Shown here: positions 32,067 through 48,568 of the stretch, piece by piece
Numbering within the stretch: position 1 is the first letter of the stretch
Layout of the letters: every line of letters begins with the position of its first letter
DNA from: Actinomycetota bacterium
GTDB lineage: Bacteria; Actinomycetota; Actinomycetes; Actinomycetales; Microbacteriaceae
Assembly (NCBI GenBank): GCA_018268455.1
Contig: JAFDWM010000008.1
Span: forward strand, 1-49,373
Direction of reading: 5' to 3'
DNA: 49,373 bases
Translations under genes and position numbers: made by a program
Notes under the pieces: generated by a model
What the model saw: only the letters and a program-made list of their open reading frames with translations
Told to the model about the DNA's origin: nothing
The model's database searches: none

Positions 32067-32116
32067 TTAGCTGACTTGACAGCATCGAATATAGGGCACA
32101 CATAGCAGATAGTCAA
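32067..32116 (-). promoter_or_regulatory. Regulon promoter-operator, copy 1 (Mom operon)
   Basis: On the minus strand: -35 TTGACT (32116-32111), 17 bases, -10 TATATT (32093-32088), then the downstream block GTCAAGTCAGCTAA (32080-32067), 18 bases before the GTG at 32049. This is one of the two copies (with that at 42476) that have TTGACT and ATGTGTGCCC. Confidence 0.8.
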
Positions 32117-32229
32117 CTGGTCAACCTCGTCGTCGACCGAAGCGTGCGGATCGGTAGGCCAGTGGACGCCTTCAGCCGGCCGCAGTGCGCAGCAGAGCGG
32201 CGCCCGGGCATGAGGGAGCGGGCTGGTTC

Positions 32230-32478
32230 TTACCGCCGGTTGCTCGTGGGTGGGCCGGTGTACCGCACGTACTCAGACCAGGTGCACTCCACGGCGAGGC
32301 GCATCGCGTCTTCCGGAAAGTACCCGATGAGCTGCCGCTGCTCAGGATCCTGCGACCAGGTCACCGAACGCAGCAGACGTCGCCCTTTGACTTCGACATG
32401 CCGGATGATCGCGATGCGCTTGCTCTGGTCGAACACGTACCAGATGCCCGGCTCTGGCGATCTCTGCAGCTGCGACAT
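32230..32478 (-). CDS. Uncharacterised small protein
   Basis: The start is taken as ATG 32478 (MSQLQRSPEPGIWYVFDQSK); the frame extends to a GTG at 32532. The product is 82 residues (100 from GTG), beta-rich in its first half (IAIIRHVEVKGRRLLRSVTW) and helical after (EDAMRLAVECTWSEYVRY). It lies between the type III restriction gene and the first regulon promoter. No clear ribosome site and no family were seen. Confidence 0.5.
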   Translation of the reverse strand: MSQLQRSPEPGIWYVFDQSKRIAIIRHVEVKGRRLLRSVTWSQDPEQRQLIGYFPEDAMRLAVECTWSEYVRYTGPPTSNRR

Positions 32479-32634
32479 CGGAGTCCAGTGCTGCACCACC
32501 CCGTGACCATACGCAAGGGTGCCGACAACCACACGGTTGCACAGACGAGCCAGGTCGAGTGTCCGCTCTAGGTGGCCATCAACGTCGGCGGCGCACCAGT
32601 CTGCTTCTGTTCCTAGGTGTCATCCCGAGGGCTG

Positions 32635-35130
32635 CTACTGATAGCGGCCGCCGTGCTGGTCAAACAGGGCGCGCACGTCGGCCTCGGTGCCGCCGGTCTT
32701 CGCCAGGGAGATCATCGCGTCCTGCGCTGTCGGGCTCGCGAGGTTCAGCTGGACGAGGACGTCGGAGCCCTTCTTTTCGTCGATGATCGCGAGAACGCGG
32801 CCGAGGCGGGTGGCGTTCTGCTTCGTGTACTCGGCGAGAGCGCCCCACTTCGGGATTGTGTCGCTGCGGGACGGATCGTGTGGGTCGATGATGTCTATGA
32901 GCACTTCGCCGTCGCGTTCGGTGAAGACCAGGAAGTCGGGATGCAGCAGGCGCTGCTCCCCGAGCGGGCCGTACGCGATCGCGATGGACTGGGTGCCGCT
33001 CGAGGGGTTCCGATACCAGGCGAGGGTGGTGTGGCGCTTCGTCTCCGTCTCGAGCACGGCGCGTTCCCACGTGTTGCCGTCGTGCGGGAATTGTCCGTCA
33101 GTGTCCGCGAGCAGGTGGCGCGGCCAGCGGTGCTCGGCGTCCTTCACTACCGTGTCCGCGGGTGCCTCGACGGGGATCTCGACGGAACGCTTCGACTCGG
33201 CGAACGCGGCGTAGAAGTCGGTCTCTGCGGTCCCGCCGATCTGCGACAGGGCGGCGGCGTGCTGCTTCCGCCATTGATCCAGCAGCGTCTGGCTGGCGTC
33301 CTCGACAGCTTTCACTGTGTCGGGCTGCTGTGCGACAGCTGCGACGATGAGGCGTGCGGCGTCTCCGTCCCGGTCGCCTTCGGGCTGGGCCATGTACAGG
33401 CGGTCCCAGAGCCACTTCGCTGAGTTGTCCGGGAGGCGGCGGGCGGCGATGTTGAACAGGTCGGCGACGTTACGGGTGGCAATCTTCGCGCTTTCGGCCT
33501 GCGTGCCAGTCTGCTCGCCGGTGAGCCAGTCGATCGCGAGGGTCTGATAGTCGACCTCCTCGTAGGCGGTCACCTTGTCGTCGACGAACTGCTGGTTGGC
33601 TTTGATGTGCTGCAGCAGGGTGTCGACTGCCCGGTCTTGAGCGATCCGCGGTGCGTCTTGGAGGATGCCGGTCTTCGCGAGCACCATCGCCGCGGTCAAT
33701 ACGCGGGATGTCGCCGGCCGCGCGGTCCGTGAGGGCCGCGACCAGCTGGGGAAGTCCCTGAACGCGGTCCATACAGCATCCGGCACGGCGGCGTTGCGGG
33801 TGACTGGCACCGGGTTCACCACGACGGGCGTTGCGACCTCGGTGTCGCCGGTGCGCAGGCGCATCGCGACCCGCTCGACGGACTCCTGATCGAAGTGCGG
33901 AAGATAGGTCCACACGGCGTTCAGGTTGTCGTCGCCGGCGACCCGCTTCGCGAGTGGGGTGCGGACGATGCGGCCGACGAGCTGGGTGATGGTCACGTCG
34001 TCGCTGGTGCCGCGGAGGGAGACCAGCACCTCGGCGCGGGGGCAATCCCACCCGGTCGTGAGCGCGTCCTTGAACAGCACCACCTTCACTCCGCCGGTCT
34101 CCTGGATCCGGGGTGGGTCGACGTAGCGCACGTCGTGGCTTCCGAAGGTGACCGCGGATCCGCCCTCGAGCGCGTTGGCGAAGTTGTCGATTGTGAGGGT
34201 TGAGTCGGCTTGCAGGATGTCCTGGATGAAGCCGGCCACGATGGTCTCATTCGGTTTTGCGGTCAGCTGTACGAGAAGCACCGGCTCCACGAGCGCATCG
34301 CCCGGATTCTGGTCCGCCCAGGACGCCCATCGCTGCTCCTGGCGGGCGCGCTGGATCGCCGCCTCCCGAACGAGGGTCGAGTCTGATGCGATCTCCTCGG
34401 TCGGATGCGCGAGGACGAGCTGGTCCTTCACGAGCCCGGACTCGCGTACCGCCGCAACCTCTACGTCGACCGCCTCACGGTACGCCCGATGCGCTGCGAT
34501 GTTCTTTTCGAAGCGCTCCGGAGTGGCGGAGACACCGACGACGATCGGCACCGGATTGCTCATCTTGCCGCCGCCCCGGGTCAGCTGCCCGAGGATCGTG
34601 TCGCCGCTCGCACTGGATCCGCCGCCAGTGCCCTGGTGCGCTTCGTCGACGAACATGACCACGCGGCTGCCGAACCGGTCGACCGTGTTGCTCAGGGTCT
34701 CCCACAGGGTGAAGGTGCGCCCATCCTTTGAGGTGTAGTTGGTCGCGCTGCTGCCGAGCTTCTGGGTGTTCAGAAAGTACACCCGGCCCGGTGTCAGTGT
34801 TTCCACGTCGTACTGCTTCGAGGAGTCGATGATGTGCAACCGGGGACGCAGCTTCTCGCTCGCGCGTTCGAACTTGTCACGAGTCTGCTCGTTCAGCTTC
34901 GGGTAGAGCGATACCCACAGGATGACCGGTTCCTCGCCGGGTATCACCGTGTCACCGAAAATCAGATCCTCGATGGCGGCCGCGGCGATGATCGTCTTGC
35001 CGGCACCGGTCGGTGCCGCGAGGCTCACAGCCGACGACTTACCCTTCGACGCGAGCCCGGCGCCCACTTCGATACCGCTGACGATCTCGCCGGCGGCCTG
35101 CGCCTGGTAGCCCCGGAGCTGGTACTCCAT
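32635..35130 (-). CDS. res: Type III restriction enzyme, Res subunit
   Basis: The start is the ATG at 35130 (MEYQLRGYQAQAAGEI), overlapping the mod stop (TGATG). The 831-residue product has SF2 helicase motifs: LAAPTGAGKTIIAA at 37-50, VVMFVDEAHQGTGGG (DEAH), VGVSATPERF (motif III), and QLVGRIVRTP (motif VI). The C-terminal part (GEVLIDIIDPHDPSRSD) holds the acidic stretch expected for the endonuclease domain, though the full PD-(D/E)xK pattern is not unambiguous. With Mod it forms the type III complex, which translocates along DNA and cleaves near unmodified sites. The length is somewhat below the usual 900-1000. Confidence 0.88.
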   Translation of the reverse strand: MEYQLRGYQAQAAGEIVSGIEVGAGLASKGKSSAVSLAAPTGAGKTIIAAAAIEDLIFGDTVIPGEEPVILWVSLYPKLNEQTRDKFERASEKLRPRLHIIDSSKQYDVETLTPGRVYFLNTQKLGSSATNYTSKDGRTFTLWETLSNTVDRFGSRVVMFVDEAHQGTGGGSSASGDTILGQLTRGGGKMSNPVPIVVGVSATPERFEKNIAAHRAYREAVDVEVAAVRESGLVKDQLVLAHPTEEIASDSTLVREAAIQRARQEQRWASWADQNPGDALVEPVLLVQLTAKPNETIVAGFIQDILQADSTLTIDNFANALEGGSAVTFGSHDVRYVDPPRIQETGGVKVVLFKDALTTGWDCPRAEVLVSLRGTSDDVTITQLVGRIVRTPLAKRVAGDDNLNAVWTYLPHFDQESVERVAMRLRTGDTEVATPVVVNPVPVTRNAAVPDAVWTAFRDFPSWSRPSRTARPATSRVLTAAMVLAKTGILQDAPRIAQDRAVDTLLQHIKANQQFVDDKVTAYEEVDYQTLAIDWLTGEQTGTQAESAKIATRNVADLFNIAARRLPDNSAKWLWDRLYMAQPEGDRDGDAARLIVAAVAQQPDTVKAVEDASQTLLDQWRKQHAAALSQIGGTAETDFYAAFAESKRSVEIPVEAPADTVVKDAEHRWPRHLLADTDGQFPHDGNTWERAVLETETKRHTTLAWYRNPSSGTQSIAIAYGPLGEQRLLHPDFLVFTERDGEVLIDIIDPHDPSRSDTIPKWGALAEYTKQNATRLGRVLAIIDEKKGSDVLVQLNLASPTAQDAMISLAKTGGTEADVRALFDQHGGRYQ

Positions 35131-37196
35131 CAGCGCCCTCCCACGTTGATCTCGAAGTTGCTGAGATAGTTCTCGTACAGCCGGAACGACGACACCTCGG
35201 GGCGCATCGCTCGCACGATCGGGCCGTACGTGGTCTCCGAGTCCGAGACGACGTAGACGGTCTCGATCTCCGGCCGGCTGTTCACGAGCTCGACGAACGG
35301 TGCCCACTCGGCGACGCTGAACAGCACCGCATAGTTCGCGCCCTCGGGCACCGCGAATGCCTCGGCACGCTCAGCGATCACCGGGCCGCGCCCGCCGGCC
35401 TTCACCCACAGCAGCGTCGCGATCTGCCGGAATGCATCGTCGGCAGCGATGTCATCGCGGTCGAGGTAGTCGAGCTTCAAAAAGGTCACGTTCTCGTCGT
35501 ACCCAATCGCACCCGGAATGCCCGACGCGATCTTCTTGCCGTCCGCGTCCATCACCGGGTCAGTGAGCTTCGAGCCGTCGCGCCGTGTGCCAGTGACAAC
35601 CGTCTGGATTCGCGGCAGCGTGACCTTCTCGAAAACACCTTCCGCCTCCCACTCGGGATCTCCCGCTGCATGGCCAGCTTTGGTGAGGGCCGTCGCCGCC
35701 TTCTGCCCTACCTCGTTATTTGTCACGACAATCGACTGCCTGTGGCCGCCATCGGTCGCGTTGAGCTGCAGAACGGCGTGCGCAGTCGTCCCGGTGCCTG
35801 CGAAGAAGTCGAGAACTACGGCACTGGGCTGGCCGCCTGTCGCGATGTTCACCCACCGCGCGATGACGTCGACGTCTTTCGGGAAGGGGAAGTCGTTGGT
35901 TCCGAGGATCGCAGCTAGTGACCTCGTAGCCTTCGATCGGTCCTGAGTGAACACGGGGGCAACAGACTGCTGGCTGCCGGCTTCCAGGAAGCGCTTCTGG
36001 CGCGCGGAACCGGTGCTGTCAGGGGCAAAGACGACTATGCCGTCTTCAATCGCTTGCATCATCCGCTCGCGCGACCAGATCCACCCGTTCGGATGCATCT
36101 TCACGGGCTTACCATCGACCGGGTGCGGAATGTCGTACTGAAGGTTCGGGCGGGGAAAGGGGTTTCGCAGATCGCCCGTGCTGTAGACCTTGCCGGCGTG
36201 CTTCGGATGGCCATCAACTTGGTCGTACATGTTGAGGCCGCGCTCGGCACGGGCCGGGTGGTCAGCCGGAAGGGCTCTGCGCCAGTTTCGGAGCAACGCG
36301 GTGGCAGCTGCAGCGTCATGACCGGACTCCTCCCACGCATCGAGCCCAGCCTGCAGTAGTTCGTCGTACCCGGGACGTGACTCCTTCCAGGCATCACCGG
36401 TAGAGAGAAGCGCCTTGTCCTTCGCGAAAAAGAGCATGTAGTCGTGCGTGTCGGCGATGAACTTCACGTTGTTCTTACGGCCGCCCTGCCACACAACGTT
36501 GCCGAGGAAGTTCTGCTCACCGAATACTTCGTCCAGGAGCACCCGAAGGCGGTGGTGCTCGTTGTCGTCGATGGCGACGATGATGACGCCGGTCGGAGCG
36601 AGGAGGTGTCGCGCGAGCTCGAGGCGCTTCTGCATGAAGCTCAGCCACTTGGAATGGCGGTATGCGTCCGCGTCGCCGACGTAGCGGTCGTTGTAGATCC
36701 AGTCGCCGGCGCCGGTGTTGTAGGGCGGGTCGATGTAGATCAGATCGACCTTGCCCTCGTGCGTGTATCGGAGCGTCTCGAGCGCGTGGAAGTTCTCACC
36801 CTCGATGACGAGGTGGTGCGGCTTGTCGCCGCCGCGCTCTATCGACCCGAGCGGCGTGAAGCCTGGGTAGACGGGCTCGTCGAAGACACGCGCGACCACG
36901 AGGTCGCCTGTCGGCACTTCGCGCGTTTCGCCGTCGTGGTGCAGTTGCGCGACTCCGCCGACGACCCTCTTCACCTCCCAGTAGCGCGGGTCAGAACCGT
37001 CGCGTAGCTGGGCGCGGACGCCGCGTCGCACGCGGGCCTTCGGGATGCGGATGCCTTCGGGGAGGTGCTCCTCGAAGTTCAAGCCCCACTTCTTCTTGCC
37101 GGTGATCTGGGTGATCTCGGCGGCGATGCGGTCGCGCAGGGCCTGGTCGGCTACCTGATCCAGCAGCACGTCTATGCGTCGCCGTTCGTCGGTCAT
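35130..37196 (-). CDS. mod: Type III modification methyltransferase, Mod subunit
   Basis: The ATG at 37196 has GAGGAG upstream. The 688-residue product is a beta-class N6-adenine methyltransferase: motif IV DPPYNTG at 156-162 precedes motif I LDFFAGTGTTAHAV near residue 465. The target-recognition region lies between (WQGGRKNNVKFIADTHDYML to NPFPRPNLQYDIPHP). It methylates one strand of an asymmetric site and confers specificity on Res. No simple-sequence repeat that would allow phase variation was seen. The pair lies within the regulon region but has no regulon promoter in the right orientation, so it may be an independent cargo. Confidence 0.9.
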   Translation of the reverse strand: MTDERRRIDVLLDQVADQALRDRIAAEITQITGKKKWGLNFEEHLPEGIRIPKARVRRGVRAQLRDGSDPRYWEVKRVVGGVAQLHHDGETREVPTGDLVVARVFDEPVYPGFTPLGSIERGGDKPHHLVIEGENFHALETLRYTHEGKVDLIYIDPPYNTGAGDWIYNDRYVGDADAYRHSKWLSFMQKRLELARHLLAPTGVIIVAIDDNEHHRLRVLLDEVFGEQNFLGNVVWQGGRKNNVKFIADTHDYMLFFAKDKALLSTGDAWKESRPGYDELLQAGLDAWEESGHDAAAATALLRNWRRALPADHPARAERGLNMYDQVDGHPKHAGKVYSTGDLRNPFPRPNLQYDIPHPVDGKPVKMHPNGWIWSRERMMQAIEDGIVVFAPDSTGSARQKRFLEAGSQQSVAPVFTQDRSKATRSLAAILGTNDFPFPKDVDVIARWVNIATGGQPSAVVLDFFAGTGTTAHAVLQLNATDGGHRQSIVVTNNEVGQKAATALTKAGHAAGDPEWEAEGVFEKVTLPRIQTVVTGTRRDGSKLTDPVMDADGKKIASGIPGAIGYDENVTFLKLDYLDRDDIAADDAFRQIATLLWVKAGGRGPVIAERAEAFAVPEGANYAVLFSVAEWAPFVELVNSRPEIETVYVVSDSETTYGPIVRAMRPEVSSFRLYENYLSNFEINVGGR

Positions 37197-37322
37197 CGGG
37201 GCAGCTCCTCAGCCTGGAGCGTCAGTCCCGGACGCTCACTCGTCATCACGCTATCGGGCGCTTATGCCGGGCGTGTCTGTCTGCAATGGGCCGCGGACAG
37301 AGAGGGCACCCGGCCGTGGATC

Positions 37323-37343
37323 GTCAAGTGTCAAGTCAACTAA
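37323..37343 (+). promoter_or_regulatory. Partial regulon operator (degenerate copy)
   Basis: On the plus strand GTCAAGT is followed by GTCAAGTCAACTAATC, the operator half of the regulon cassette. The expected TATATT upstream is absent. It has the opposite orientation to all full copies. An AGGAGGG and a 13-codon frame (ATG 37358 to TAG 37399) follow, possibly only chance. Confidence 0.6.
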
Positions 37344-37395
37344 TCCAGGAGGGCCGGATGTCCAGCGCTCCACTGACCGGGTGCCGTCTCAGATC

Positions 37396-37986
37396 TTAGC
37401 GGTCGCCCCCGTCGCCGGGGACTGACGCGTGCGGCGCGGCCGCGCATGCGCGCAGCCATGCCGCAACGCGCGCTTCGTCCCATTCCGTGATCTCGCTGGT
37501 GTGCAGTTGCGCGATCAGATCGTCGACGAGCCGGTTCCACGCTGCGAGGCCCAGAGGTGCTATTCCGGCGAGGGGGAGGCGTTGGCGCCACCAGGTGGAG
37601 GACTCTGCTGGGTTCCCGCCGGCGTCCGAGCCGCAGTTGGGGCACAGACCGAGGGAGTCGGTGGTCTTCCGCCGGTGCCAGACGACAACGGCCCCGCACC
37701 AGGCGCATTGGTGGACGAACTGCTCGCCCCGTCTCATGGCCTCGGTGGGCACGAGTTCGAGGCCGACGTCGGCGAGTTCGAACAGCGGCTCGTCGGCGGT
37801 CATGACTTCCCTCGCTTTCCGGGCGCCGACGCTCAGGGATCTCGCCGTGGCGATCCGTGGCCGGCCGATGACCTCGTAGTCGTGACTCTGCTCCCAGCGG
37901 TCGGCAGCGTCACGGCTCGTGAAGGGCACGGCCACGACCTCGCCGGAGGTGAACTCCACTAGGAGCACGACGCGCTCGTCATTCAT
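37396..37986 (-). CDS. Zinc-ribbon protein, unknown
   Basis: The 196-residue product begins MNDERVVLLVEFTSGEVVAV with a small beta/helix domain, and at residues 93-121 has CAWCGAVVVWHRRKTTDSLG then CPNCG, a two-CxxC zinc ribbon. The C-terminal 70 residues are helical. It overlaps the upstream gene by 8 bases and is last in the operon that starts with the first dprA-like gene. It may be a DNA- or RNA-binding accessory protein. Confidence 0.65.
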   Translation of the reverse strand: MNDERVVLLVEFTSGEVVAVPFTSRDAADRWEQSHDYEVIGRPRIATARSLSVGARKAREVMTADEPLFELADVGLELVPTEAMRRGEQFVHQCAWCGAVVVWHRRKTTDSLGLCPNCGSDAGGNPAESSTWWRQRLPLAGIAPLGLAAWNRLVDDLIAQLHTSEITEWDEARVAAWLRACAAAPHASVPGDGGDR

Positions 37987-38209
37987 CGGGGACCTCCTCG
38001 AGGTGTGCGCGGAGGTGGAGGCGATCGCGGATCTCGTCGACGATCTCCTCGCTGCCGCCGCCGAGGATCTCGTCGACGACCTCGAGGTGGATGTGTCCGG
38101 TCAGCCCGAGCTCGCGCAGCGCCGCGCAGACGGATGCCGCCTCGGCGGGGTCACCGAGATCCAGGACGACCCGTCGACGTCGCGGCGAGAGGTGGGTGAC
38201 CAGGCTCAT
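37979..38209 (-). CDS. Small acidic protein, unknown
   Basis: A 76-residue product whose ATG overlaps the upstream stop by 4 bases. It starts with a basic strand (HLSPRRRRVVLDLGDPAEAA) and ends with an acidic amphipathic helix (EEIVDEIRDRLHLRAHLEEV). No family was recognised. The overlaps on both sides support it. Confidence 0.6.
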   Translation of the reverse strand: MSLVTHLSPRRRRVVLDLGDPAEAASVCAALRELGLTGHIHLEVVDEILGGGSEEIVDEIRDRLHLRAHLEEVPDE

Positions 38210-39234
38210 GCTGCGACCCGCTTCCGCAGTGTCCGCTCGAAGACGGTCTGGATGTCGCCGCGGTGATGCCGCTCCGCGGCTTTGACGATGGCCGGCACGG
38301 TGCGGCCAACGATGGCGGCGGCCTGGTGGGGGGATTCGCCGAGCTCGAGCAGGAAGGCGATGTCGTCGAGGTACTCGGTGGCCGTGTATCGGGCGTCACG
38401 CGCCTTCGCCACTCCCTCCGGCACCTCGGTGGGGTCGTCGATGTCGTCCCAGGCGAGCGGGCCGACCCACCGGTAGTGCTTGGCGATCTTCTTGGCCCGC
38501 TCGGCGCGTACCCCGTCCTGCGGCTTGTCCCACTGCTGGATGAAGAGGGCAGTGACCTTGTTGCGGGTGCCGGTGGTGATGCGGTTCCTCCGTCCGTGCA
38601 GCAGGGTCCAGAAGTTCCCGACGCCCATCCCCAGCGCCTCGGCGAGAGCGGTCTCCTGCCATCCGATGGCGACGAGTGCGCGCAGCCGGCGGACGGTGCC
38701 TGTGGGATCGATGAGAGCGGCCTCGATGCTGTCGGCGGTGAGGGCGAGGAGAGCATCGGCGTACGACTTGCGGATCTTCTCCACGGGGGCACGCTGATCG
38801 GTTCCGCGCGGCCCGTAGATGAGGTCCATCATCGGGCCGTGCCCGACGCCTGCTGCCCGGCCGATGCGTTCGTAGCCGAGGCCGAGCTCGTGCAGCTGCT
38901 GGACGTGTGCGCGGACGGGGGCCGCGGGTACCAGGCGGGGGCCGATCTGGTCGTCTCGACCGTAGGCGCGCAGCCTGTTCCGTCGACGCTGCCGTTCCAT
39001 TGCTCGCTCGTGGACGCACGTGCTGCAGCGGCATCCGTGTCGCGTCCAGCAGGTGTCGACGTCGTGAGGATGATCGGGTGGGCACTGGTTCCGGATGCCG
39101 TTGGCGCGGGTGGGGCGGGCGGTGTGGTTGCCGGCGCGGTACTCCCGCAGGTAGTGCATGCGGCACAGCCCGCGAGCGGTGACCGGCCGGGAGCACTGCT
39201 CTTCGGGTGCCTGGCAGGTGCGATTGGTGGTCAA
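38206..39234 (-). CDS. Actinophage-type helix-turn-helix protein with zinc N-terminus
   Basis: The start is a TTG at 39234, backed by an AGGAGGTGA site ten bases upstream; starting later would cut off the Cys cluster. The 342-residue product has an N-terminal CxnCxnCxxH motif (CQAPEEQCSRPVTARGLCRMHY) and a second cluster (CWTRHGCRCSTC). Several helix-turn-helix-like repeats follow (HELGLGYERIGRAAGVGHG; GWQETALAEALGMGVGNFW; GESPHQAAAIVGRTVPAIVK). Proteins of this build occur in actinobacterial phages and plasmids and are thought to bind DNA. It is a candidate, though unproven, regulator of the repeated promoters. Confidence 0.65.
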   Translation of the reverse strand: MTTNRTCQAPEEQCSRPVTARGLCRMHYLREYRAGNHTARPTRANGIRNQCPPDHPHDVDTCWTRHGCRCSTCVHERAMERQRRRNRLRAYGRDDQIGPRLVPAAPVRAHVQQLHELGLGYERIGRAAGVGHGPMMDLIYGPRGTDQRAPVEKIRKSYADALLALTADSIEAALIDPTGTVRRLRALVAIGWQETALAEALGMGVGNFWTLLHGRRNRITTGTRNKVTALFIQQWDKPQDGVRAERAKKIAKHYRWVGPLAWDDIDDPTEVPEGVAKARDARYTATEYLDDIAFLLELGESPHQAAAIVGRTVPAIVKAAERHHRGDIQTVFERTLRKRVAA

Positions 39235-39281: not shown

Positions 39282-40238
39282 TCAGAGGAGCGCGAGCGCG
39301 TCCGTGGCGTCGGTGACGAGGGTGGCTCCGCTCTCGCGGATGAGACGGTGGGTGCCGGCGCTGCTCGGGCTCGTGATCGGGCCGGGCACCGCGCCGACAC
39401 GTCGACCGAGCTGCGCGGTCTCAGCGGCCAGGAGCAGGGAGCCGCTGCGCCAGCCGGCTTCGACGATCACGGATGCCTGCGACAGCCCGCCGAGGACGCG
39501 AGCCCGAGCGGCGAAGCGCCACTTGGTGGGCGCGGCACCGGGGGCGAGTTCGCTGACGATCGCGCCGCCGGCGATCGCTACCCGGTTGATCAGGTCGTTG
39601 TGTCCTGCCGGGTAGGGGCGGTCGACGCCGCCGCCGAGGACGACGATCGGGGTGCCGCCGGCGGCGAGGGTGGCGCGGGTGGCTGCCCCGTCGATCCCAT
39701 AGGCGGCGCCGGTGGCGATCGCCACGCCCCGCTCGGTGAGCTCGGTGGCGAGCTCACCGGCGACGTGGTCGCCGTACCCGGTGGAGGCCCGCGCTCCGCC
39801 AATCGCGATGACTCGAGCGTGGCGCAGCGCGGCCGCGTCGCCGCGTACCCACAGTCCCGCGGGGCGGCGGTCGCCGAGTGAGTCGAGAGCGGTCGGCCAG
39901 GCGTCGTCCCCGGGGATGAGGAAGACGGCATCGGCGTGGCTGTCCAGCCAGCGCGCGGCGCGCTCGATCCCGTCGCCCAGGAGGGTGCGGGGTCGGATCT
40001 GGTTGACAGCCTCGATCTCGGTGGCGCTCAGTCCGGCGAGGTCGCCCGTGATGATCGTCGTGACGACGTCGCGGGCGGGAGTCTCGCTGCCGGTCTGCGC
40101 GCGACGTGTGAGCCAGGCGCCCAGGGTCGGGTTGTTGGGCTCTGCCCAGACGGTGAGCGCGAGGCGAGACTCGCGCTCGGTCCAGGTTGCGACCTCACCG
40201 GTCGTGGGGAGGGGGAGAGTGGTGGTGCGGGTGGTCAT
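39282..40238 (-). CDS. DprA/Smf-family protein
   Basis: The start is the ATG at 40238, with AGGAGG upstream. The 318-residue product has the Rossmann-type DprA core: VIAIGGARASTGYGDHVAGE, VAIATGAAYGIDGAATRATL, TPIVVLGGGVDRPYPAGHND, IVSELAPGAAPTKWRFAARA and SVIVEAGWRSGSLLLAAETA. DprA loads RecA on single-stranded DNA in transformation; copies on plasmids and phages are presumed to process incoming single strands or act as sensors. It is the first gene of an operon (40238 to 37396) under regulon promoter copy 3. A second, more diverged relative heads the next operon. Confidence 0.85.
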   Translation of the reverse strand: MTTRTTTLPLPTTGEVATWTERESRLALTVWAEPNNPTLGAWLTRRAQTGSETPARDVVTTIITGDLAGLSATEIEAVNQIRPRTLLGDGIERAARWLDSHADAVFLIPGDDAWPTALDSLGDRRPAGLWVRGDAAALRHARVIAIGGARASTGYGDHVAGELATELTERGVAIATGAAYGIDGAATRATLAAGGTPIVVLGGGVDRPYPAGHNDLINRVAIAGGAIVSELAPGAAPTKWRFAARARVLGGLSQASVIVEAGWRSGSLLLAAETAQLGRRVGAVPGPITSPSSAGTHRLIRESGATLVTDATDALALL

Positions 40239-40258
40239 CGGATCCTCCTGGATGATGA

Positions 40259-40308
40259 TTAGTTGACTTGACACCATCTAATATAGATCTCAGGTTGGAC
40301 ATGCGCAA
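40259..40308 (-). promoter_or_regulatory. Regulon promoter-operator, copy 3 (dprA operon)
   Basis: -35 TTGCGC (40308-40303), 17 bases containing ATGTC, -10 TATATT (40285-40280), then GTCAAGTCAACTAA (40272-40259), 20 bases before the ATG at 40238. Confidence 0.8.
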
Positions 40309-41764: not shown

Positions 41765-42457
41765 TCATAGGTGCGCGAGCGTGCGCGGATCGGACAAGGC
41801 GTCGAGCTCGTCGGGGGTATGGACGAGGGTCGCGAGATCTGCGGCGAGCAGCTGCCGGGTGCCGCGACCCGGGCGGGACTGATCAGTGGGCGTGGCGGCC
41901 ACGGCCCGGGACAGCCCGCCGGCGATCGCGGCCGCGGTCATCCCCGCCGATCGCGCACCGATCTCGACGAGGACGAGGCGAGCCGCGAGCGCGGCGATGA
42001 GGCGTGCGCTGCGGTGGGAGGTGCGGCCGCCCCGTGGCGACGAGGCCTCCCAGAGGATCAGCCCGCCGCGCTCGAGGATCCCCCGCTGCGCAGCGCGGGC
42101 GATATAGCCGGCCTCGGACGGTGGTCGGTCGGGGATCGCGATGATGCGCCCGCCGGCGCGGCGGGCGGCGTCGACCACGGCGAGATCGGTTCCCGTCTCG
42201 GAGGGAGTGACGAGGACCTCACCACGAGCGGCGAGCCCGGCGGCCAGCGCCGCGCCGGCAGCCCGACCGGCGACCGTCGCTGTACGCCCGCCGATGAGTG
42301 CCGTGCGCGCCCCGGACTGGAGAAGATCCAGAGCGCCGAGCGCAAGGATGCGCCGTGGAGCGATCGAGCCGAGATCGGCGAACGCTGCCGGCCAGCGCTC
42401 ATGCTCGAGGTGCAGTAGGACGGCGCCGTCTGCGCCGGATGTCTCGTGCGCGGGCAT
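41765..42457 (-). CDS. DprA-like Rossmann protein, diverged
   Basis: The ATG at 42457 follows GGGGGACG. The 230-residue product keeps traits of the DprA/LOG Rossmann fold: TALIGGRTATVAGRAAGAAL, LAARGEVLVTPSETGTDLAV, RAGGRIIAIPDRPPSEAGYI and LVLVEIGARSAGMTAAAIAG. The phosphate-binding GG.R...G and the VE.G.rSG stretch correspond to those of DprA, but the N-terminal SAM-like domain is missing and the core is shorter. It heads an operon of four genes (42457 to 40313) under regulon promoter copy 4. A paralogue under the same promoter type heads the neighbouring operon. Confidence 0.65.
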   Translation of the reverse strand: MPAHETSGADGAVLLHLEHERWPAAFADLGSIAPRRILALGALDLLQSGARTALIGGRTATVAGRAAGAALAAGLAARGEVLVTPSETGTDLAVVDAARRAGGRIIAIPDRPPSEAGYIARAAQRGILERGGLILWEASSPRGGRTSHRSARLIAALAARLVLVEIGARSAGMTAAAIAGGLSRAVAATPTDQSRPGRGTRQLLAADLATLVHTPDELDALSDPRTLAHL

Positions 42458-42475
42458 GACGTCCCCCTATCCAAA

Positions 42476-42525
42476 TTAGCTGACTTGACGGTTATAAATA
42501 TAGGGCACACATATGAGCTAGTCAA
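42476..42525 (-). promoter_or_regulatory. Regulon promoter-operator, copy 4
   Basis: -35 TTGACT (42525-42520), 17 bases, -10 TATATT (42502-42497), then GTCAAGTCAGCTAA (42489-42476), 18 bases before ATG 42457. It is nearly identical to copy 1 from -35 to -10. Confidence 0.8.
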
Positions 42526-42572
42526 GACGCCCGTCTCCGAGCGAGAGGATGCGCGCTGGGCAGCGGGGGACA

Positions 42573-42578: not shown

Positions 42579-42584
42579 CTGGGC

Positions 42585-43789: not shown

Positions 43790-43819
43790 AATGCAGGGCA
43801 CGAGTGAGGTGGCATCCCG

Positions 43820-44116
43820 ATGATCGAAGTCGAGTTCCGGCGGCCCGCGGCGAGCGGGTATGAGGCGGTCGGTGTGCTGCGTGTCGAGGACGATGGCTCT
43901 TATCGGGTCTCGGGGGACATCGGGGTCGACCTCGAGGAAGTGACCATCATGGACCGGTCAGCGCCGGGCGGTCGTCTCGCGCTGGCCGATGATCCGGTTA
44001 CCTGGGCGCGCAAGGCGCGGCGGGCGTTCCGTACCGGCTACCTGGTGCCGGTGGTGGTGGCTGATACCTCCCCCGGCGGCGAGCGCGCCGATGGTGGAGG
44101 GTTGAGCGATGGGTGA
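43820..44116 (+). CDS. Small uncharacterised protein
   Basis: The ATG at 43820 follows GAGGTGG. The 98-residue product begins MIEVEFRRPAASGYEAVGVL, is beta-rich in the first half and has a basic helix (DDPVTWARKARRAFRTGYLV). It overlaps the next gene by 8 bases. Function is unknown. Confidence 0.6.
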   Translation: MIEVEFRRPAASGYEAVGVLRVEDDGSYRVSGDIGVDLEEVTIMDRSAPGGRLALADDPVTWARKARRAFRTGYLVPVVVADTSPGGERADGGGLSDG

Positions 44117-44441
44117 GCTGATCGATCCGGCCGATCCGGAGTACGAGTGGAAGGTCGCCGAGCAGTATCAGGCCCTCGTGGACGCGCCCGGGCCGGATGA
44201 CGACGCTCCTGTGCAGATCACGTCTCGGCAGGCGTTGAAGCTCGCGGCGATCGCCGAGGCCGTGGCAGCGGGGCATGTCGGATTCACCGATGCGCTGCGC
44301 GCAGGGGCCTGGTTCCTGCAGTGCGCGAACGCCGAGGCTCCCCACGTGGGGGATCGCATGCGGATGTCGATGTCCGCCGCCGAGGCGTGGGAGCGGGTGG
44401 ACGCGTACCCGTGGCCGCGGTCAGGGAATCCGCGGGGCTGA
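44109..44441 (+). CDS. Small acidic protein, unknown
   Basis: The start is the ATG at 44109, preceded by GGAGGG. The 110-residue product (MGELIDPADPEYEWKVAEQY) is mostly helical with ITSRQALKLAAIAEAVAAGH. It ends the plus-strand operon that began at 42585. No family was recognised. Confidence 0.6.
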   Translation: MGELIDPADPEYEWKVAEQYQALVDAPGPDDDAPVQITSRQALKLAAIAEAVAAGHVGFTDALRAGAWFLQCANAEAPHVGDRMRMSMSAAEAWERVDAYPWPRSGNPRG

Positions 44442-44616
44442 GCCGTACACGACCCGCCTGACGGCGATCGAGTGTGGCTCCGGGTCGGCGTGGGGAGTAG
44501 CCGGCTGCGGCGAGCGCGACTGCGGGCTCCGGAGTGGAGCCCATCCCTCCGAGGGGAGGCGGTGTGCGCTTCCCCTGGCCGTTGTGCGGTTGGCGGGTCA
44601 GTCCCCCTCTTGTCGA

Positions 44617-44666
44617 TTAGCTGACTTGACTACTACTAATATAGGGCCTGCTTCTGACATGCGCAA
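44617..44666 (-). promoter_or_regulatory. Regulon promoter-operator, copy 5 (orphan)
   Basis: -35 TTGCGC (44666-44661), 17 bases, -10 TATATT (44643-44638), then GTCAAGTCAGCTAA (44630-44617). No minus-strand gene follows, so it may make an antisense or small RNA, or have lost its gene. Confidence 0.75.
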
Positions 44667-44722
44667 GTCAGCCGCCGCCGTTTCGCCGTAGTCGTTGAGC
44701 TGCGCGCCGAGTCGCGTTCCGG

Positions 44723-44759
44723 CTCACAGGGTGGGGCGGCGTGCGCCCCACCCTGTGAG
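44723..44759 (-). terminator. Terminator of the DUF4192 gene
   Basis: A 16-base stem (CTCACAGGGTGGGGCG and its complement) with a 5-base loop, 2 bases past the stop at 44762. Confidence 0.8.
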
Positions 44760-44761
44760 GG

Positions 44762-45787
44762 TCAACGCTCGAACGCCCAGCGGGGCAGGTGGCCTGCCTG
44801 GACGAACGAGGCGACGATCTCGGAGAGGCCGTGGCCGGGTTCGATCGCGAGCGCCTGGCGGGCGTAGGCGTCGGCGTGGGTGGAGTGCCCGAGCGCCCAG
44901 GAGAGCCACGCGATGGTCGCCAGCAGGCCTGCGCGGAGGGGCTGGGGGGCGAGTGCGGTCAGGTGGCGCACGGTGGCGAGAGCGGCCTGCAGGCGGCGCG
45001 CGTCGGGTCGGGGAGCGTCGCCCCACATGATGCTGGCGAGGTCGGTGGGGTACTCCTCGCCGTGCTCCCATCCGGCCTGCGCCTCGGCGGCGCGCTCGCC
45101 GCCGTGCTCGTCGGTGGCCCACTGCACGATGGCGATGTCGCGGAGGGAGGGGCGGCTGAGGGCGAAGATCAGGCTGGCCGCGTCGAACGGGTCGATCTCC
45201 GTGGGCGGGGTGGTCGCGGCGACCTCCGCGAGCGCGACCCAGTCGGTTTCGGCGACGTCGGCGAGGCCGAAGTCCTCGAACGCGGCGAGCACGGCCTCGA
45301 GGCGGTCCTCGTCGGGGGCGGGGATCTCGGTGCCGCTGTGTTGGTCGCCGGTGGTGGCGCGGCCTGCGGCGAGCGCGGTGTTGATCTCGGCGAGCGGGTG
45401 GGGCTGGTCGTCGGTGAGGGCGCTTCCCCAGCCGTTGCGGGCGACGTAGAGGGCGTCCTTGATGCCGAAGCCGCATTCGGTGGCTCGGTCGAGGAGGGCG
45501 CTGATGATGGGGCGGGTGGTGTGCCCGTCCTGGTCGGTGTAGATGACCACGGCGACGGCGCGAGCGTCGGGGATGCGGCAGACGATGCCGGTGATGGTGC
45601 TGGCGAGGGCCTGCGGGTCGGTGTCCTCGTTGAGGTCGAAGCGTGCGGCTCCGGCGGTGTGGTTGCCGCGGAAGGGGACGACGACGATGGAGCGGGTCGG
45701 GGTGTAGCCGATGAGGGCGGGGATGAGGCCGAGGAAGTCGGCGGCGGTGGTGGCCTGGACGATGGTCGGCTGGGCGGTGGTGGTCAT
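44762..45787 (-). CDS. DUF4192 protein
   Basis: The start is the ATG at 45787, with CGAGGAGGAC upstream; the frame continues upstream through the promoter. The 341-residue product matches DUF4192: ADFLGLIPALIGYTPTRSIV followed by VVPFRGNHTAGAARFDL near the N-terminus, and a C-terminal helical part (LLATIAWLSWALGHSTHADA, YARQALAIEPGHGLSEIVAS) with a TPR-like look. DUF4192 is widespread in actinobacteria, on chromosomes and conjugative plasmids, with no established function. It is a one-gene unit with its own promoter (copy 6) and terminator. Confidence 0.85.
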   Translation of the reverse strand: MTTTAQPTIVQATTAADFLGLIPALIGYTPTRSIVVVPFRGNHTAGAARFDLNEDTDPQALASTITGIVCRIPDARAVAVVIYTDQDGHTTRPIISALLDRATECGFGIKDALYVARNGWGSALTDDQPHPLAEINTALAAGRATTGDQHSGTEIPAPDEDRLEAVLAAFEDFGLADVAETDWVALAEVAATTPPTEIDPFDAASLIFALSRPSLRDIAIVQWATDEHGGERAAEAQAGWEHGEEYPTDLASIMWGDAPRPDARRLQAALATVRHLTALAPQPLRAGLLATIAWLSWALGHSTHADAYARQALAIEPGHGLSEIVASFVQAGHLPRWAFER

Positions 45788-45809
45788 GGGGTCCTCCTCG
45801 GGACGATGA

Positions 45810-45859
45810 TTAGTTGACTTGACTACTATGAATATAGGGCATGGGTCCGACATTGGCAA
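45810..45859 (-). promoter_or_regulatory. Regulon promoter-operator, copy 6 (DUF4192)
   Basis: -35 TTGCCA (45859-45854), 17 bases with ATGTCGGA, -10 TATATT (45836-45831), then GTCAAGTCAACTAA (45823-45810). Confidence 0.8.
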
Positions 45860-45861
45860 CC

Positions 45862-45899
45862 CCCGGGGAGCGGGACGGCGATTCGCCCCGCTCCCCGGG
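45862..45899 (-). terminator. Terminator of the DnaJ-zinc-like gene
   Basis: A 13-base stem CCCGGGGAGCGGG with CCCGCTCCCCGGG and a 12-base loop, between the stop at 45906 and promoter copy 6. Confidence 0.8.
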
Positions 45900-45905
45900 C
45901 CTGGT

Positions 45906-46403
45906 TCACCAGATCTCGAAGCCCCCGCTGTGACGCGCGAAGCGGGCGAACGCGGCCACGTTGGCGACCTCGAACGGGTAGTGCCGCGCGCTCGGCTCGG
46001 TCTGCCCGGTGCCGCTGCAGGCATTGCACCCGCCGCGACCGGTCACGGGGTCGCGAGGCTTGTCGAGGCCGTTCTGCACGCCGATCTCGTCGGTGCGCAC
46101 CCCGGTGCCCGAGCACAGCCAGCACACCTCCATCGGGAGGGCGGCGAGGTAGACGCTGCGCTCCGCCTCGTACAGCGCGACAGTGCCGTTGGCGAGGTCG
46201 AGGTCGAGCGCGTCGGCCAGGGCGAGCGCGCCCGCGTCGTCGAGGCCGTCGCCGTCGTTGCTGTGCCAGTAGGTGCATCCGGCTGTCAGTGCCGGGTGCG
46301 CAGCGGTGAGGTAGTCGGCGAGCGGATGCCAGCCCCACACGCTGTTGCGGAAGTACTGCCCGACCTCGGCGGTCGGGTTCTTCCCGTAGACGTCCATACC
46401 CAT
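45906..46403 (-). CDS. Protein with DnaJ-like CxxCxG zinc pairs
   Basis: The start is the ATG at 46403. The 165-residue product begins MGMDVYGKNPTAEVGQYFRN, with WHPLADYLTAAHPALTAGCT. It carries two CxxCxGxG-type motifs, CWLCSGTG near 114 and CNACSGTGQTE near 146, as in the DnaJ zinc finger, so it probably binds one zinc. The MGMDVYGK opening recurs in mobile-element proteins I have seen in actinobacteria, whose role is unknown. It is a one-gene unit under promoter copy 7. Confidence 0.7.
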   Translation of the reverse strand: MGMDVYGKNPTAEVGQYFRNSVWGWHPLADYLTAAHPALTAGCTYWHSNDGDGLDDAGALALADALDLDLANGTVALYEAERSVYLAALPMEVCWLCSGTGVRTDEIGVQNGLDKPRDPVTGRGGCNACSGTGQTEPSARHYPFEVANVAAFARFARHSGGFEIW

Positions 46404-46424
46404 GTCGATCCCCTTTCCTTGGGA

Positions 46425-46474
46425 TTAGTTGACTTGACACCTACGAATATAGGAGGGGGGTCGGACATTGGCGC
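46425..46474 (-). promoter_or_regulatory. Regulon promoter-operator, copy 7
   Basis: -35 GCGCCA (46474-46469), 17 bases, -10 TATATT (46451-46446), then GTCAAGTCAACTAA (46438-46425). It is nearly identical to copy 8 from the -10 through the operator. Confidence 0.75.
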
Positions 46475-46488
46475 GGCGGAACGGCCCG

Positions 46489-46537
46489 GGCAGGCAGGAG
46501 GGGCGGAGCCGGCTCGACCCCGCCCCTCCTGCCTGCC
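46489..46537 (-). terminator. Terminator of the gene at 46544
   Basis: An 18-base perfect stem beginning GGCAGGCAGGAGGGGCGG with its complement at 46520-46537 and a 13-base loop. Confidence 0.85.
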
Positions 46538-46543
46538 GCGGTA

Positions 46544-47104
46544 TCAGGCGACGGTGGGGGTGAACACGCAGTAGGTCTCGCGTCCGTGGTGCCAGCCGTC
46601 GCACTCGATGTGCCCGAGCTTCCGGGCGTCGTTGCGGCAGGCGCAGCGCGCGGCGATCTCGTCGCTGTCGATGCGCGCGGCGTGCAGCGCCTCGATGTGG
46701 TCGAGCCTGTCGGCGAAGCCGTCATGGTCGGGGAGTCCTGCAGCGGCCCACAGTCGCGCGCACAACCCGAAGCCCTCGTGCGAGAGCGGTGCCCGCTCTG
46801 CGGCCGCGAGAAGGCCGATCACGACTTCCACAGCGGTGCCCGGGCGGGTGTCCTCCCCGTGGGCGACCCGTTCGAGGATCTCGCGCACGTGGGCGCGGTA
46901 GACGATCTCCACGCCCATCCGGGCGGATGCCTCATCGCCGCTCAGCAGGGCGAACGAGTGGTAGAGCTTGTCGGCGTCCTCGGGGTGGCGCAGCTGCGCC
47001 TGTGCGATCTCGTCCTCGGCCCAGCCGATGCGCTCGAAGATCGACCCGAGCGCATCCTCGATCCCGGCCAGGATCTCGGCCGCTCCAGTGGTGACGTCAG
47101 TCAT
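46544..47104 (-). CDS. Uncharacterised protein with C-terminal Cys/His cluster
   Basis: The ATG at 47104 follows AGGAGGACATC. The 186-residue product begins MTDVTTGAAEILAGIEDALG and is helical for most of its length (FERIGWAEDEIAQAQLRHPE; AVEVVIGLLAAAERAPLSHE). The end has CACRNDARKLGHIECDGWHH followed by a Cys, a possible metal site. No family was recognised. It is a one-gene unit under promoter copy 8. Confidence 0.65.
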   Translation of the reverse strand: MTDVTTGAAEILAGIEDALGSIFERIGWAEDEIAQAQLRHPEDADKLYHSFALLSGDEASARMGVEIVYRAHVREILERVAHGEDTRPGTAVEVVIGLLAAAERAPLSHEGFGLCARLWAAAGLPDHDGFADRLDHIEALHAARIDSDEIAARCACRNDARKLGHIECDGWHHGRETYCVFTPTVA

Positions 47105-47124
47105 GATGTCCTCCTAAATGTGGG

Positions 47125-47174
47125 TTAGTTGACTTGACACCTACGAATATAGGAGGGGGGTCGGACATTGGTGC
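47125..47174 (-). promoter_or_regulatory. Regulon promoter-operator, copy 8
   Basis: -35 GCACCA (47174-47169), 17 bases, -10 TATATT (47151-47146), then GTCAAGTCAACTAA (47138-47125). Confidence 0.75.
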
Positions 47175-47203
47175 GACGGGACGACGACTGGCGGGGGCAG
47201 AGA

Positions 47204-47234
47204 GAGGGGCGGAGCCGGCTCGGCTCCGCCCCTC
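47204..47234 (-). terminator. Terminator of the gene at 47248
   Basis: A 13-base stem GAGGGGCGGAGCC with GGCTCCGCCCCTC and a 5-base loop, 14 bases past the stop. Confidence 0.8.
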
Positions 47235-47247
47235 GCTCATCGGTGGA

Positions 47248-47742
47248 TCAGGCGCGTTCTGCCTCCCAGTCGTCCACGTCCAGCCCATCCCATCCGCGCG
47301 AGCGGAGGGACTCGATCACGTCGTCGCGGGTGACCTCCTCGGAGGCGATGTCTCCCGCACCGTCGCTGTCGCGGGCGGTCACCGTCTTGTAGACGGTGAG
47401 GGAAAGCGTGATGTCGAGACGGACCTCGAAGTCACGCTCACGGGGAACCCCGTTCAGTTCGTCCGCGAGGCGGTCGTACTCGGCGCAGAACCCGGCGTAG
47501 TCGGCGATCCGGCCCGCCTTGTCCCAGAAGTCGACGAGGCGGGGGTCGCCGCCGTCCGTGATCTGGTCGAAGCGCAGCCGGTTGTTCTCCGCCTCGAGCT
47601 CGGCCACGCGGGCGAGCGCGTCGCGCGCCGTGGCCTCGGCCCGGGCGATCTCGCCGATGGCGACCGTCCGGTTGTCGCGGATGAAGCTGATCTCGCCCAG
47701 CTCGGCCGCGGTGTCGGTTCCGGTGGTGGTGATGTCAGTCAT
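47248..47742 (-). CDS. Uncharacterised coiled-coil protein
   Basis: The start is the ATG at 47742 after GGGAGGACATC. The 164-residue product has a coiled-coil-like N-terminal part (IGEIARAEATARDALARVAE; LEAENNRLRFDQI), then FCAEYDRLADELNGVPRERD and a beta stretch (FEVRLDITLSLTVYKTVTAR), ending with an acidic SLRSRGWDGLDVDDWEAE. No family was recognised. It is a one-gene unit under promoter copy 9. Confidence 0.65.
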   Translation of the reverse strand: MTDITTTGTDTAAELGEISFIRDNRTVAIGEIARAEATARDALARVAELEAENNRLRFDQITDGGDPRLVDFWDKAGRIADYAGFCAEYDRLADELNGVPRERDFEVRLDITLSLTVYKTVTARDSDGAGDIASEEVTRDDVIESLRSRGWDGLDVDDWEAERA

Positions 47743-47764
47743 GATGTCCTCCCTAGAACGGTGA

Positions 47765-47814
47765 TTAGTTGACTTGACGTGTACAAATATAGGGGCCACC
47801 TCCGACATTGGGAG
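47765..47814 (-). promoter_or_regulatory. Regulon promoter-operator, copy 9
   Basis: -35 CTCCCA (47814-47809), 17 bases with ATGTCGGA, -10 TATATT (47791-47786), then GTCAAGTCAACTAA (47778-47765). The -35 and spacer overlap the terminator of the upstream gene. Confidence 0.75.
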
Positions 47815-47822
47815 GTGGCCCC
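47792..47822 (-). terminator. Terminator overlapping promoter copy 9
   Basis: A 12-base perfect stem GGGGCCACCTCC with GGAGGTGGCCCC and a GACATTG loop. It ends the gene at 47847 and shares its bases with the next promoter. Confidence 0.8.
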
Positions 47823-47846
47823 TATCCGCCTAGGGAGTGACGGGGA

Positions 47847-48497
47847 TCAGGAGGTCATGGCATCGACCTCCTCGGCCCATGCTTCGGGGTCGGCCTCGGC
47901 GCACTTGCGACGGATCTCACCGGCGATCTCGGCCATGTCGGCGGTGTCGTAGACCGTGGCGAGCGCCTCGGCCTCGCGGCGGGTGAAGTGCTCGAAGAAG
48001 TCCTCGCCCACCTCGATCCGGCCCAGCAGCTCGGCCAGCTCGCGCAGCTCGGCGCGCAGCCGGTCGAGCACCTCGGCGGGGGAGTGTCCCGGCTCGTAGA
48101 CCGGCTCCAGGTTCCCCGCGCTCGTGCGCTCGGCCACGATGCGCCCGCCCTGCCACTGCTCGCGGGTGACGCTCGGCTCCTCGCCGGTCCACTCGGTCTC
48201 GATCAGCACCGTCGCGGTCGGGTAGCGGTGCGTGAACGCTTCCCCGAACGTGGCGAGTCCCTCGGTCTCGTACTTGTCGTGGTACGCCAGGTGCGCACCC
48301 TCATCGTCGAGACCGAAGTCCGAGTCGAACCCGAGCGCCCGCCCGCCCAGATAGACCCGCTCCTCGCGGAGGCTCTCGCCGATCTCCAGGCCGTGCTCGC
48401 GGTCCACGCTCGCGTTCCACAGCGCCACCATGCTCTCCAGCGCAGCGACCTCCTCCCGGTTCGGGAAGGTGATCGTCACCGATGTCCACATGCTCAT
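47847..48497 (-). CDS. Uncharacterised acidic protein
   Basis: The start is the ATG at 48497 (MSMWTSVTITFPNREEVAAL); ATG 48491 is an alternative. The 216-residue product has an N-terminal ferredoxin-like or beta-alpha part, a mid segment with FGLDDEGAHLAYHDKYETEG and EAFTHRYPTATVLIETEWTG, and a helical end (DRLRAELRELAELLGRIEVG; EIRRKCAEADPEAWAEEVDA). It is strongly acidic. No family was recognised. It is a one-gene unit under promoter copy 10. Confidence 0.65.
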   Translation of the reverse strand: MSMWTSVTITFPNREEVAALESMVALWNASVDREHGLEIGESLREERVYLGGRALGFDSDFGLDDEGAHLAYHDKYETEGLATFGEAFTHRYPTATVLIETEWTGEEPSVTREQWQGGRIVAERTSAGNLEPVYEPGHSPAEVLDRLRAELRELAELLGRIEVGEDFFEHFTRREAEALATVYDTADMAEIAGEIRRKCAEADPEAWAEEVDAMTS

Positions 48498-48518
48498 GTC
48501 AGGCCCTACCTTTCTTGA

Positions 48519-48568
48519 TTAGTTGACTTGACAGCTACTAATATAGATGTAGGTTCCGACATCGGGAT
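48519..48568 (-). promoter_or_regulatory. Regulon promoter-operator, copy 10
   Basis: -35 ATCCCG (48568-48563, weak), 17 bases with ATGTCGGA, -10 TATATT (48545-48540), then GTCAAGTCAACTAA (48532-48519). It diverges from the plus-strand genes that begin at 48592. Confidence 0.75.

Follow-up and report, generated by a model that had tools for sequence, protein, structure and literature searches.

The window analysed here is contig JAFDWM010000008.1 (assembly GCA_018268455.1; whole genome 3.6 Mb, 310 contigs) at its full length of 49,373 nt. It carries an array of nine cassettes, each combining a predicted promoter with a downstream box, GTCAAGTCARCTAATC, and a tenth, lone box lies inverted among them (Table 1). 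Genes behind the cassettes encode DprA-like proteins, an HNH (GmrSD_C) protein, a DUF4192 protein, Mom and unknown proteins. An earlier note, made from the letters of this DNA, had placed the DprA operons, the Mom operon and several single genes under one such promoter set, and this assignment was borne out.

A search of the window allowing up to 3 mismatches returned 10 matches to the box (7 exact, two with 1 mismatch, one with 2); 100 shuffles of the window gave a mean of 0.33 matches and a maximum of 2. The motif scan of this genome suggested in the earlier note indicated that the 14-base core of the box (up to 1 mismatch) is confined to these 10 places in 3.6 Mb, with 0 matches for a control pattern. 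The nine full copies described previously were all recovered on the minus strand, and the fixed layout held, with exactly 7 nt between TATATT and the box in 9/9. The tenth copy, previously listed as partial and on the minus strand, is instead a perfect box (16/16) on the plus strand. It lies within a stem-loop, has an additional GTCAAGT in front and lacks a preceding TATATT. The proposed common -35-like hexamer was not found: the slot 17 nt before TATATT reads TTGACT in two of the nine cassettes, TTGC.. in three and has no TTG in the other four. The motif ATGTC, with 12 nt between GTC and TATATT, is present in 7/9 cassettes, and the two lacking it are exactly those with TTGACT.

Table 1 Predicted features of the window discussed in the text
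Feature	Positions	Strand	Description
Cassette 1 (closest to telomere-like end)	48517..48568	-	-26 ATGTCGGA, -10 TATATT, box; before gene 47847-48497; matrix ranks 1-3 tied
Cassette 2	47763..47814	-	-26 ATGTCGGA, -10, box; before 47248-47742; -26 in loop of 15-pair hairpin, z -5.26
Cassette 3	47123..47174	-	-26 ATGTCCGA, -10, box; before 46544-47104
Cassette 4	46423..46474	-	-26 ATGTCCGA, -10, box; before 45906-46403
Cassette 5	45808..45859	-	TTGCCA, -26 ATGTCGGA, -10, box; before DUF4192 gene 44762-45787
Cassette 6 (orphan)	44615..44666	-	TTGCGC, -26 ATGTCAGA, -10, box; no start codon in next 45 nt
Cassette 7	42474..42525	-	TTGACT-17-TATATT, no -26 element, box; before DprA-like operon from 42457
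Cassette 8	40257..40308	-	TTGCGC, -26 ATGTCCAA, -10, box; before DprA operon from 40238
Cassette 9	32065..32116	-	TTGACT-17-TATATT, no -26 element, box; before gene run 32049 to Mom (29364-30347)
Lone inverted box	37330..37345	+	extends to GTCAAGTGTCAAGTCAACTAATC; no promoter seen
Stem-loop with lone box	37289..37391	-	includes flanks (6 nt 5', 16 nt 3'); candidate antisense RNA or 3' element
Candidate regulator	38206..39234	-	several helix-turn-helix-like stretches by reading of the sequence; matches phrog_1590
DprA (PF02481)	39282..40238	-	first gene after cassette 8
Divergent DprA-like protein	41765..42457	-	first gene after cassette 7
Mom family protein (PF25680)	29364..30347	-	last gene of run after cassette 9
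Telomere-like right end	49214..49373	.	GCTGCGC in palindromes; end base = plasmid B's minus one

The spacing of the seven ATGTC cassettes (TGTC-N12-TANNNT) is that published for PafBC damage promoters, whose directional motif consists of TGTCGG, TGTCAG or TGTCAC, 10 nt and TANNNT (partial text of PMC8151990). Single-stranded DNA (ssDNA) activates PafBC, whose PafB part contacts the -26 motif (partial text of PMC11804915). The same arrangement was found upstream of recA. Among 31 loci (our own genome and 30 of 86 recA-positive genomes; 480 nt upstream searched), TGTC-N12-TANNNT occurred once per locus in 31/31, own recA included, and all other spacings from 7 to 17 together yielded a single match (at 15). 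The narrower pattern GTC[AG]G-N10-TANNNT was present at 29 of these loci, with the consensus ATGTCGGA (A in 25/29). A matrix built from those 29 promoters alone, covering eight -26 positions and three -10 positions, placed seven window cassettes at ranks 1-7 of 98,702 window positions.

Genome searches gave six matches to TGTCRGTG-N8-TANNNT, one of them before recA, and CAATGTCSGA-N9-TANNNT occurred in 56/89 genomes of the genus (reversed control 0). Four WYL-domain genes were matched in the genome, two of them about 1 kb apart on the same strand, as expected for pafB/pafC, and these two presumably form that pair. The earlier note regarded ATGTC as a spacer feature held in most copies; its prevalence stands, but since it matches the -26 element of PafBC-type promoters and of the recA promoters of the genus, it does not appear incidental. 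The promoter half of the cassettes is thus very likely of the PafBC type. An element-wide promoter set with an operator-like site at the predicted start, as first suggested, is retained, with its promoter class changed to a PafBC-type damage promoter.

Positions 30000-49373 of the window matched plasmid B of Microbacterium sp. No. 7 (NZ_CP012699) full-length at 98.3%, with the same 9+1 box sites. Related genes on plasmid A of the same strain are associated with TGTCAGATACACAAC boxes, and plasmid pYJNG and a M. paraoxydans plasmid carry GTCACATTCAC boxes (25 and 27 matches of that core). The box of Curtobacterium pC1c is TGTCAGGTCTAC, and pC1b has two cassettes with a further, different sequence. 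Gordonia pSMJS1.2 has five TGTCGGTG cassettes (four TTGTCGGTG) and an unrelated downstream repeat with six occurrences. Counting TGTC-Nk-TANNNT in seven plasmid regions gave 8, 9, 7, 18, 19, 5 and 2 matches for k=12, against no more than one for any other k between 7 and 17; the k=12 counts include non-cassette matches, namely one of the window's 8 (32528), three of pYJNG's 18 and three of M. paraoxydans' 19, of which two start inside a box. A homologous gene (window 31537-32049; plasmid A RS21585, 34%) stands behind each plasmid's own box. A new promoter-operator architecture, in which one predicted promoter half is joined to plasmid-specific boxes, is well supported. A Xylanimonas plasmid (L114:13942-20180) has its own repeat array, GACCAACCAC..CGGCGG before genes, with no -26 element.

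The boxes were also analysed as DNA dyads, using seven core bases (TGTCARR type) and arms of eight bases, in five families with 9, 13, 13, 19 and 4 cassettes. Mean dyad matches across the predicted start were 4.78, 4.77, 6.85, 5.26 and 4.75 of 8, omitting four array-orientation sites without a -10 by pattern (three in pYJNG, one in pC1c; dyads 6, 7, 6 and 8). None of 2000 shuffles reached the mean in any family. This excess over chance favours a dimeric silencer that binds DNA with its centre on the predicted start, and a silencer of that kind probably acts at the box.

An exact-pattern scan of 84,980 genomes for the window-type box found several sites per genome in Microbacterium sp. CSI-V, Microbacteriaceae PS02067, the Microbacterium metagenome-assembled genome (MAG) BWSM_6 and the actinobacterial MAG SZAS-4 (G064), and two sites in a 6.6-kb contig of a Microthrixaceae MAG. 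Three further records (Flavobacteriaceae, Fluviicola and Woesearchaeota) had a single match each, probably due to chance. A search of 148 related genomes that tolerated up to 2 mismatches found the box in our own genome and SZAS-4 only. Searches for phage relatives gave no match in phages, and none in viral contigs by pattern or by protein. On two plasmids (L142 G148:C8:96989; L147 G149:C179:67167), a box with one mismatch follows TAATAT at 7 nt and precedes a membrane-protein-like gene remote from the array. Cassette 6 looks like an orphan promoter because neither ATG nor GTG occurs in the 45 nt downstream; it faces plus-strand genes, is also present in plasmid B and PS02067, and may give rise to a non-coding or antisense transcript. 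Two GC-rich inverted repeats between array genes (46498-46528 and 47204-47234) are 94% alike and are possibly terminators.

The array lies beside a telomere-like sequence. Its first -10 and the right end of the window are 828 bp apart, and the last base of the window corresponds to base 2 of plasmid B. In the PS02067 contig, homology starts at base 11 of B and is preceded by 36 unmatched bases resembling sequencing adapter, and the CSI-V and SZAS-4 contigs begin within 6 bp of each other. Both ends of B start with CCGTCGGGGA and both ends of A with CCTGCGGATG, followed in all four by GCTGCGC; invertron telomeres carry GCTXCGC (partial text of PMC7276702). A 1672-aa protein of plasmid B is a homologue of the telomere-associated or telomere-binding proteins of linear plasmids such as pAL1. 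Matching terminal bases, the GCTXCGC motif and a Tap gene were found on both plasmids, and we think that A and B are linear. Their database records (NZ_CP012698 and NZ_CP012699), like that of pYJNG, are labelled circular. The window includes one end only, and Tap lies outside it.

Both regulators suggested in the earlier note were followed up. The helix-turn-helix (HTH) gene 27817-28143 is an unlikely regulator because tblastn finds no match for it on either plasmid B or the CSI-V contig, both bearing the box, while plasmid A, with another box, has a relative (50%); a further relative is on BWSM_6. The protein encoded at 38206-39234 is still a candidate: its gene belongs to an operon that follows a cassette, and its relatives (plasmid B 100%, PS02067 99%, CSI-V and BWSM_6 both 48%) all occur with window-type boxes; plasmid A has only a 73-residue stretch at 34%. 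Counting against it, no relative was found in SZAS-4, which bears the box. Its predicted structure was not used (mean predicted local distance difference test score, pLDDT, 43).

Other candidates were set aside. The plus-strand genes 42755-43789 (344 aa) and 43820-44116 (98 aa) are common to the window, B and SZAS-4 and have no match on A; the former looks kinase-like and gave a weak kinase-like Pfam match below cut-off. The HTH gene adjoining Tap makes a poor specificity factor because its HTH is nearly the same in A and B despite their different boxes; we take its pAL1 counterpart to be the terminal protein. A small ribbon-helix-helix-like protein is encoded directly upstream of Tap in plasmids A and B, CSI-V and pAL1 (L030:34104-34316, L032:7872-8150, L151:17506-17751), with Pfam matches below cut-off for A and B; no box was found before this gene in either plasmid.

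Some genes of the array have counterparts near transfer genes. On Arthrobacter pChr15 (MOBF) and FB24 plasmid 2 (MOBP), DUF4192 lies upstream of ParB and the relaxase gene and points towards it, as does DprA on pChr15, which suggests a leading-region role; the origin of transfer (oriT) was not located on either plasmid. Among the products of plasmid B are VirB4-like AAA_10 and TcpC-like proteins, and an FtsK/SpoIIIE protein is encoded in the window. Defence-like genes occupy 12223-20261 of the window (PDC-S28 helicase, AbiJ, RmrA-like HTH-peptidase). The survival of actinobacterial plasmids during the first minutes in a new cell is, to our knowledge, largely open. Establishment regulons that are run by a repressor and induced zygotically occur on p576 (partial text of PMC8708921).

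We propose that the cassettes control an establishment regulon located near one end of a linear Microbacterium plasmid. The upstream half would be a promoter for the host housekeeping sigma factor with a -26 element, ATGTCNGA, and 12 nt between GTC and TANNNT; we infer that host PafBC, activated by ssDNA, recruits RNA polymerase through this element. The downstream half would be a plasmid-specific dyad operator on the predicted start, at which a plasmid-encoded factor would keep the genes off in established cells. A burst of expression, followed by silencing, would occur when the plasmid enters a cell lacking the factor while entry or telomere filling provides ssDNA; we infer both this silencing and its timing. 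Taken as a whole, a PafBC-activated, plasmid-silenced establishment regulon is our preferred and probable explanation, the role in establishment as such being slightly favoured.

Several observations weigh against this proposal. The published hexamers are present in 4/9 cassettes (TGTCGG in 3, TGTCAG in 1), TGTCC is found in 3/9 and neither in the remaining 2; the recA training pattern excludes the TGTCC letter, and the two TTGACT cassettes, which lack the -26 element, are outside the top 15 of the matrix ranking. In window-type boxes, the left arm of the dyad takes in the TT of the -10. The module is missing in the examined pieces of Xylanimonas, Cellulosimicrobium, pAL1, Glutamicibacter, FB24 plasmid 2 and pChr15. 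No relaxase was found among the eight plasmid A and B proteins tested and PLSDB classes both plasmids as non-mobilizable, so transfer, and ssDNA transfer with it, is hypothetical.

The promoter class, shared with recA, also suits a damage-escape programme, in which DNA damage in the resident host, not arrival, would induce genes for repair, replication or spread. UmuDC-like genes in the CSI-V array region and elsewhere on plasmid A fit this idea, as do genes for SOS-response-associated peptidases on plasmids A, B and pYJNG. However, a plasmid-specific operator on every cassette would silence the genes in a resident host unless it were also released, and some of the genes resemble relaxase-adjacent genes of other plasmids. 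We regard this alternative as unlikely.

The lone inverted copy raises the possibility that the box serves as an RNA address. All five families examined have such an inverted copy within a long stem (window 37330; CSI-V 18289, and BWSM_6; plasmid A 122049; pYJNG 85456, and M. paraoxydans 68304; pC1c L153:26005). Opposite-strand matches at pYJNG 31107 and M. paraoxydans 17375 are not leader-like, and that at pC1c L153:25276 belongs to a cassette of its own; these were not counted as lone copies. In the window, about 10 nt separate the stem from the stop codon of the preceding gene (37396-37986). Seven aligned elements have 17 predicted pairs in the outer stem, of which 6 are changed on both sides in some sequence, one of these being broken in 3/7 elements; the MAFFT alignment is poor in the interior, and the claim is limited to the outer stem. 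On the sense strand, the box is followed by a Shine-Dalgarno-like stretch, as in the cassette leaders, in 4/5 families, the order differing in pC1c. Mean predicted duplex energies of the lone elements with their own leaders (8, 12, 11, 16 and 3 per family) were -39.1, -39.7, -36.8, -45.3 and -35.6 kcal/mol, compared with -23.5, -22.1, -21.9, -26.5 and -24.0 kcal/mol for shuffled own leaders and -19.9 to -32.5 kcal/mol for leaders of families with other boxes; the box alone accounts for much of the difference. Lone copies retain only 1, 2, 2, 4 and 0 of 8 dyad matches. A Type III restriction-modification pair (32635-37196; MTase_III 35130-37196, REase_III 32635-35130) directly follows the lone stem-loop, inside the array region and without a cassette of its own.

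The stem-loops in five families, the duplex energies and the loss of the dyad from the lone copies make it plausible that the lone element gives rise to a trans-acting antisense RNA. Such an RNA could pair with the 5' ends of cassette mRNAs and silence them with no need for a protein repressor. This would agree with the retention of the transcribed half of the box in lone copies, and with box invariance beginning at the predicted first transcribed base. Yet the cassettes conserve a dyad reaching upstream of the start, which would be superfluous for RNA pairing. There is also no lone copy in the 30.5-kb SZAS-4 contig (an incomplete plasmid) and none in opposite orientation in the Gordonia plasmid, a simple terminator scan did not flag the element, and an Rfam search returned four weak matches, none above gathering, leaving it with no Rfam family. 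As a replacement for a DNA-binding silencer, the RNA address has a low probability. A combined scheme can be put forward tentatively, with a little more confidence. In it, PafBC would be the arrival detector, and the 3' end of one induced operon would supply an antisense RNA for a common 5' mRNA tag (box to Shine-Dalgarno), ending the burst. Each family would have its own tag and matching antisense copy, so co-resident plasmids such as A and B of No. 7 would avoid cross-silencing.

The model of the earlier note, ordinary housekeeping promoters with an operator, in which ATGTC is incidental and a plasmid repressor alone matters, was weighed using 53 full box copies (49 distinct) from six contigs (window, B, PS02067, SZAS-4, CSI-V, BWSM_6). 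The search pattern itself fixes the box core, TATATT and the 7-nt spacing, and, as the window, B and PS02067 have almost the same sequence, the 49 cassettes are not independent events. Of the 49, 27 have a -35 that departs from TTGACA by at most one base, at 17 nt, and 36 have GTC at the -26 slot, leaving 13 without it; 16 cassettes have both elements and 2 neither. With a good -35 in 27 cassettes, PafBC may be dispensable at many of them, a further point against its proposed role. Ordinary promoters do not account for the four window cassettes that have a -26 element without TTG in the -35 slot, for ranks 1-7 with a matrix trained on recA, or for the exact spacing at recA and in other plasmid arrays, and we consider this model improbable. 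Frpo-type ssDNA promoters, in which the entering strand folds into a promoter, were rejected as a general explanation and are hardly credible here: two cassettes, which precede related genes, give very strong ssDNA folds (z -5.26 and -4.77), but z is below -2 in only 3 of the 14 cassettes tested (9 from the window and 5 of the 9 in SZAS-4), and the genes point away from the telomere-like end, so that a strand entering with its 5' end first from that terminus would be the coding strand.

If our proposal of a PafBC-activated, plasmid-silenced regulon is correct, a link to the host ssDNA-sensing damage response would provide an arrival signal without an ssDNA promoter. TGTC-N12-TANNNT together with a repeated box would be a simple motif for spotting candidate establishment genes in unannotated plasmids, and the box-antisense idea becomes directly testable. 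Among the matches listed in the literature searched, we found neither a combination of plasmid-specific operator and damage-type promoter nor an antisense version of such a regulon. The word Actinobacteria did not turn up in a term search of a leading-region survey.

The system can be compared with several known ones, each from partial texts. Mycobacterial PafBC (RecA-NDp) promoters (PMC8151990, PMC11804915, PMC6789036) have the same TGTC-N12-TANNNT, direction and recA match; the cassettes differ in being plasmid-borne, arrayed and each joined to a plasmid-specific operator. Frpo/ssi ssDNA promoters (PMC11541004) likewise stand before anti-defence-like genes in a presumed first-entering region, whereas hairpins are found here in only 3/14 cassettes and the orientation is unfitting. 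Actinobacterial invertrons (pAL1; PMC7276702) share the common terminal bases, GCTGCGC and a Tap homologue with an HTH gene behind it; a regulatory array beside one telomere was not described for them in the texts consulted. A similar organisation to what we propose is seen in the establishment regulons of pLS20-family plasmids, EGeRS2 of p576 (PMC8708921), where a repeated regulatory sequence stands before several operons; here too, one operator type was found before many operons of one plasmid. The p576 repressor, absent from the recipient, gives a transient burst, and the same is proposed here. Strong promoters and a ribbon-helix-helix repressor serve p576, whereas the present array would combine a damage-type promoter and a predicted silencer on a linear plasmid.

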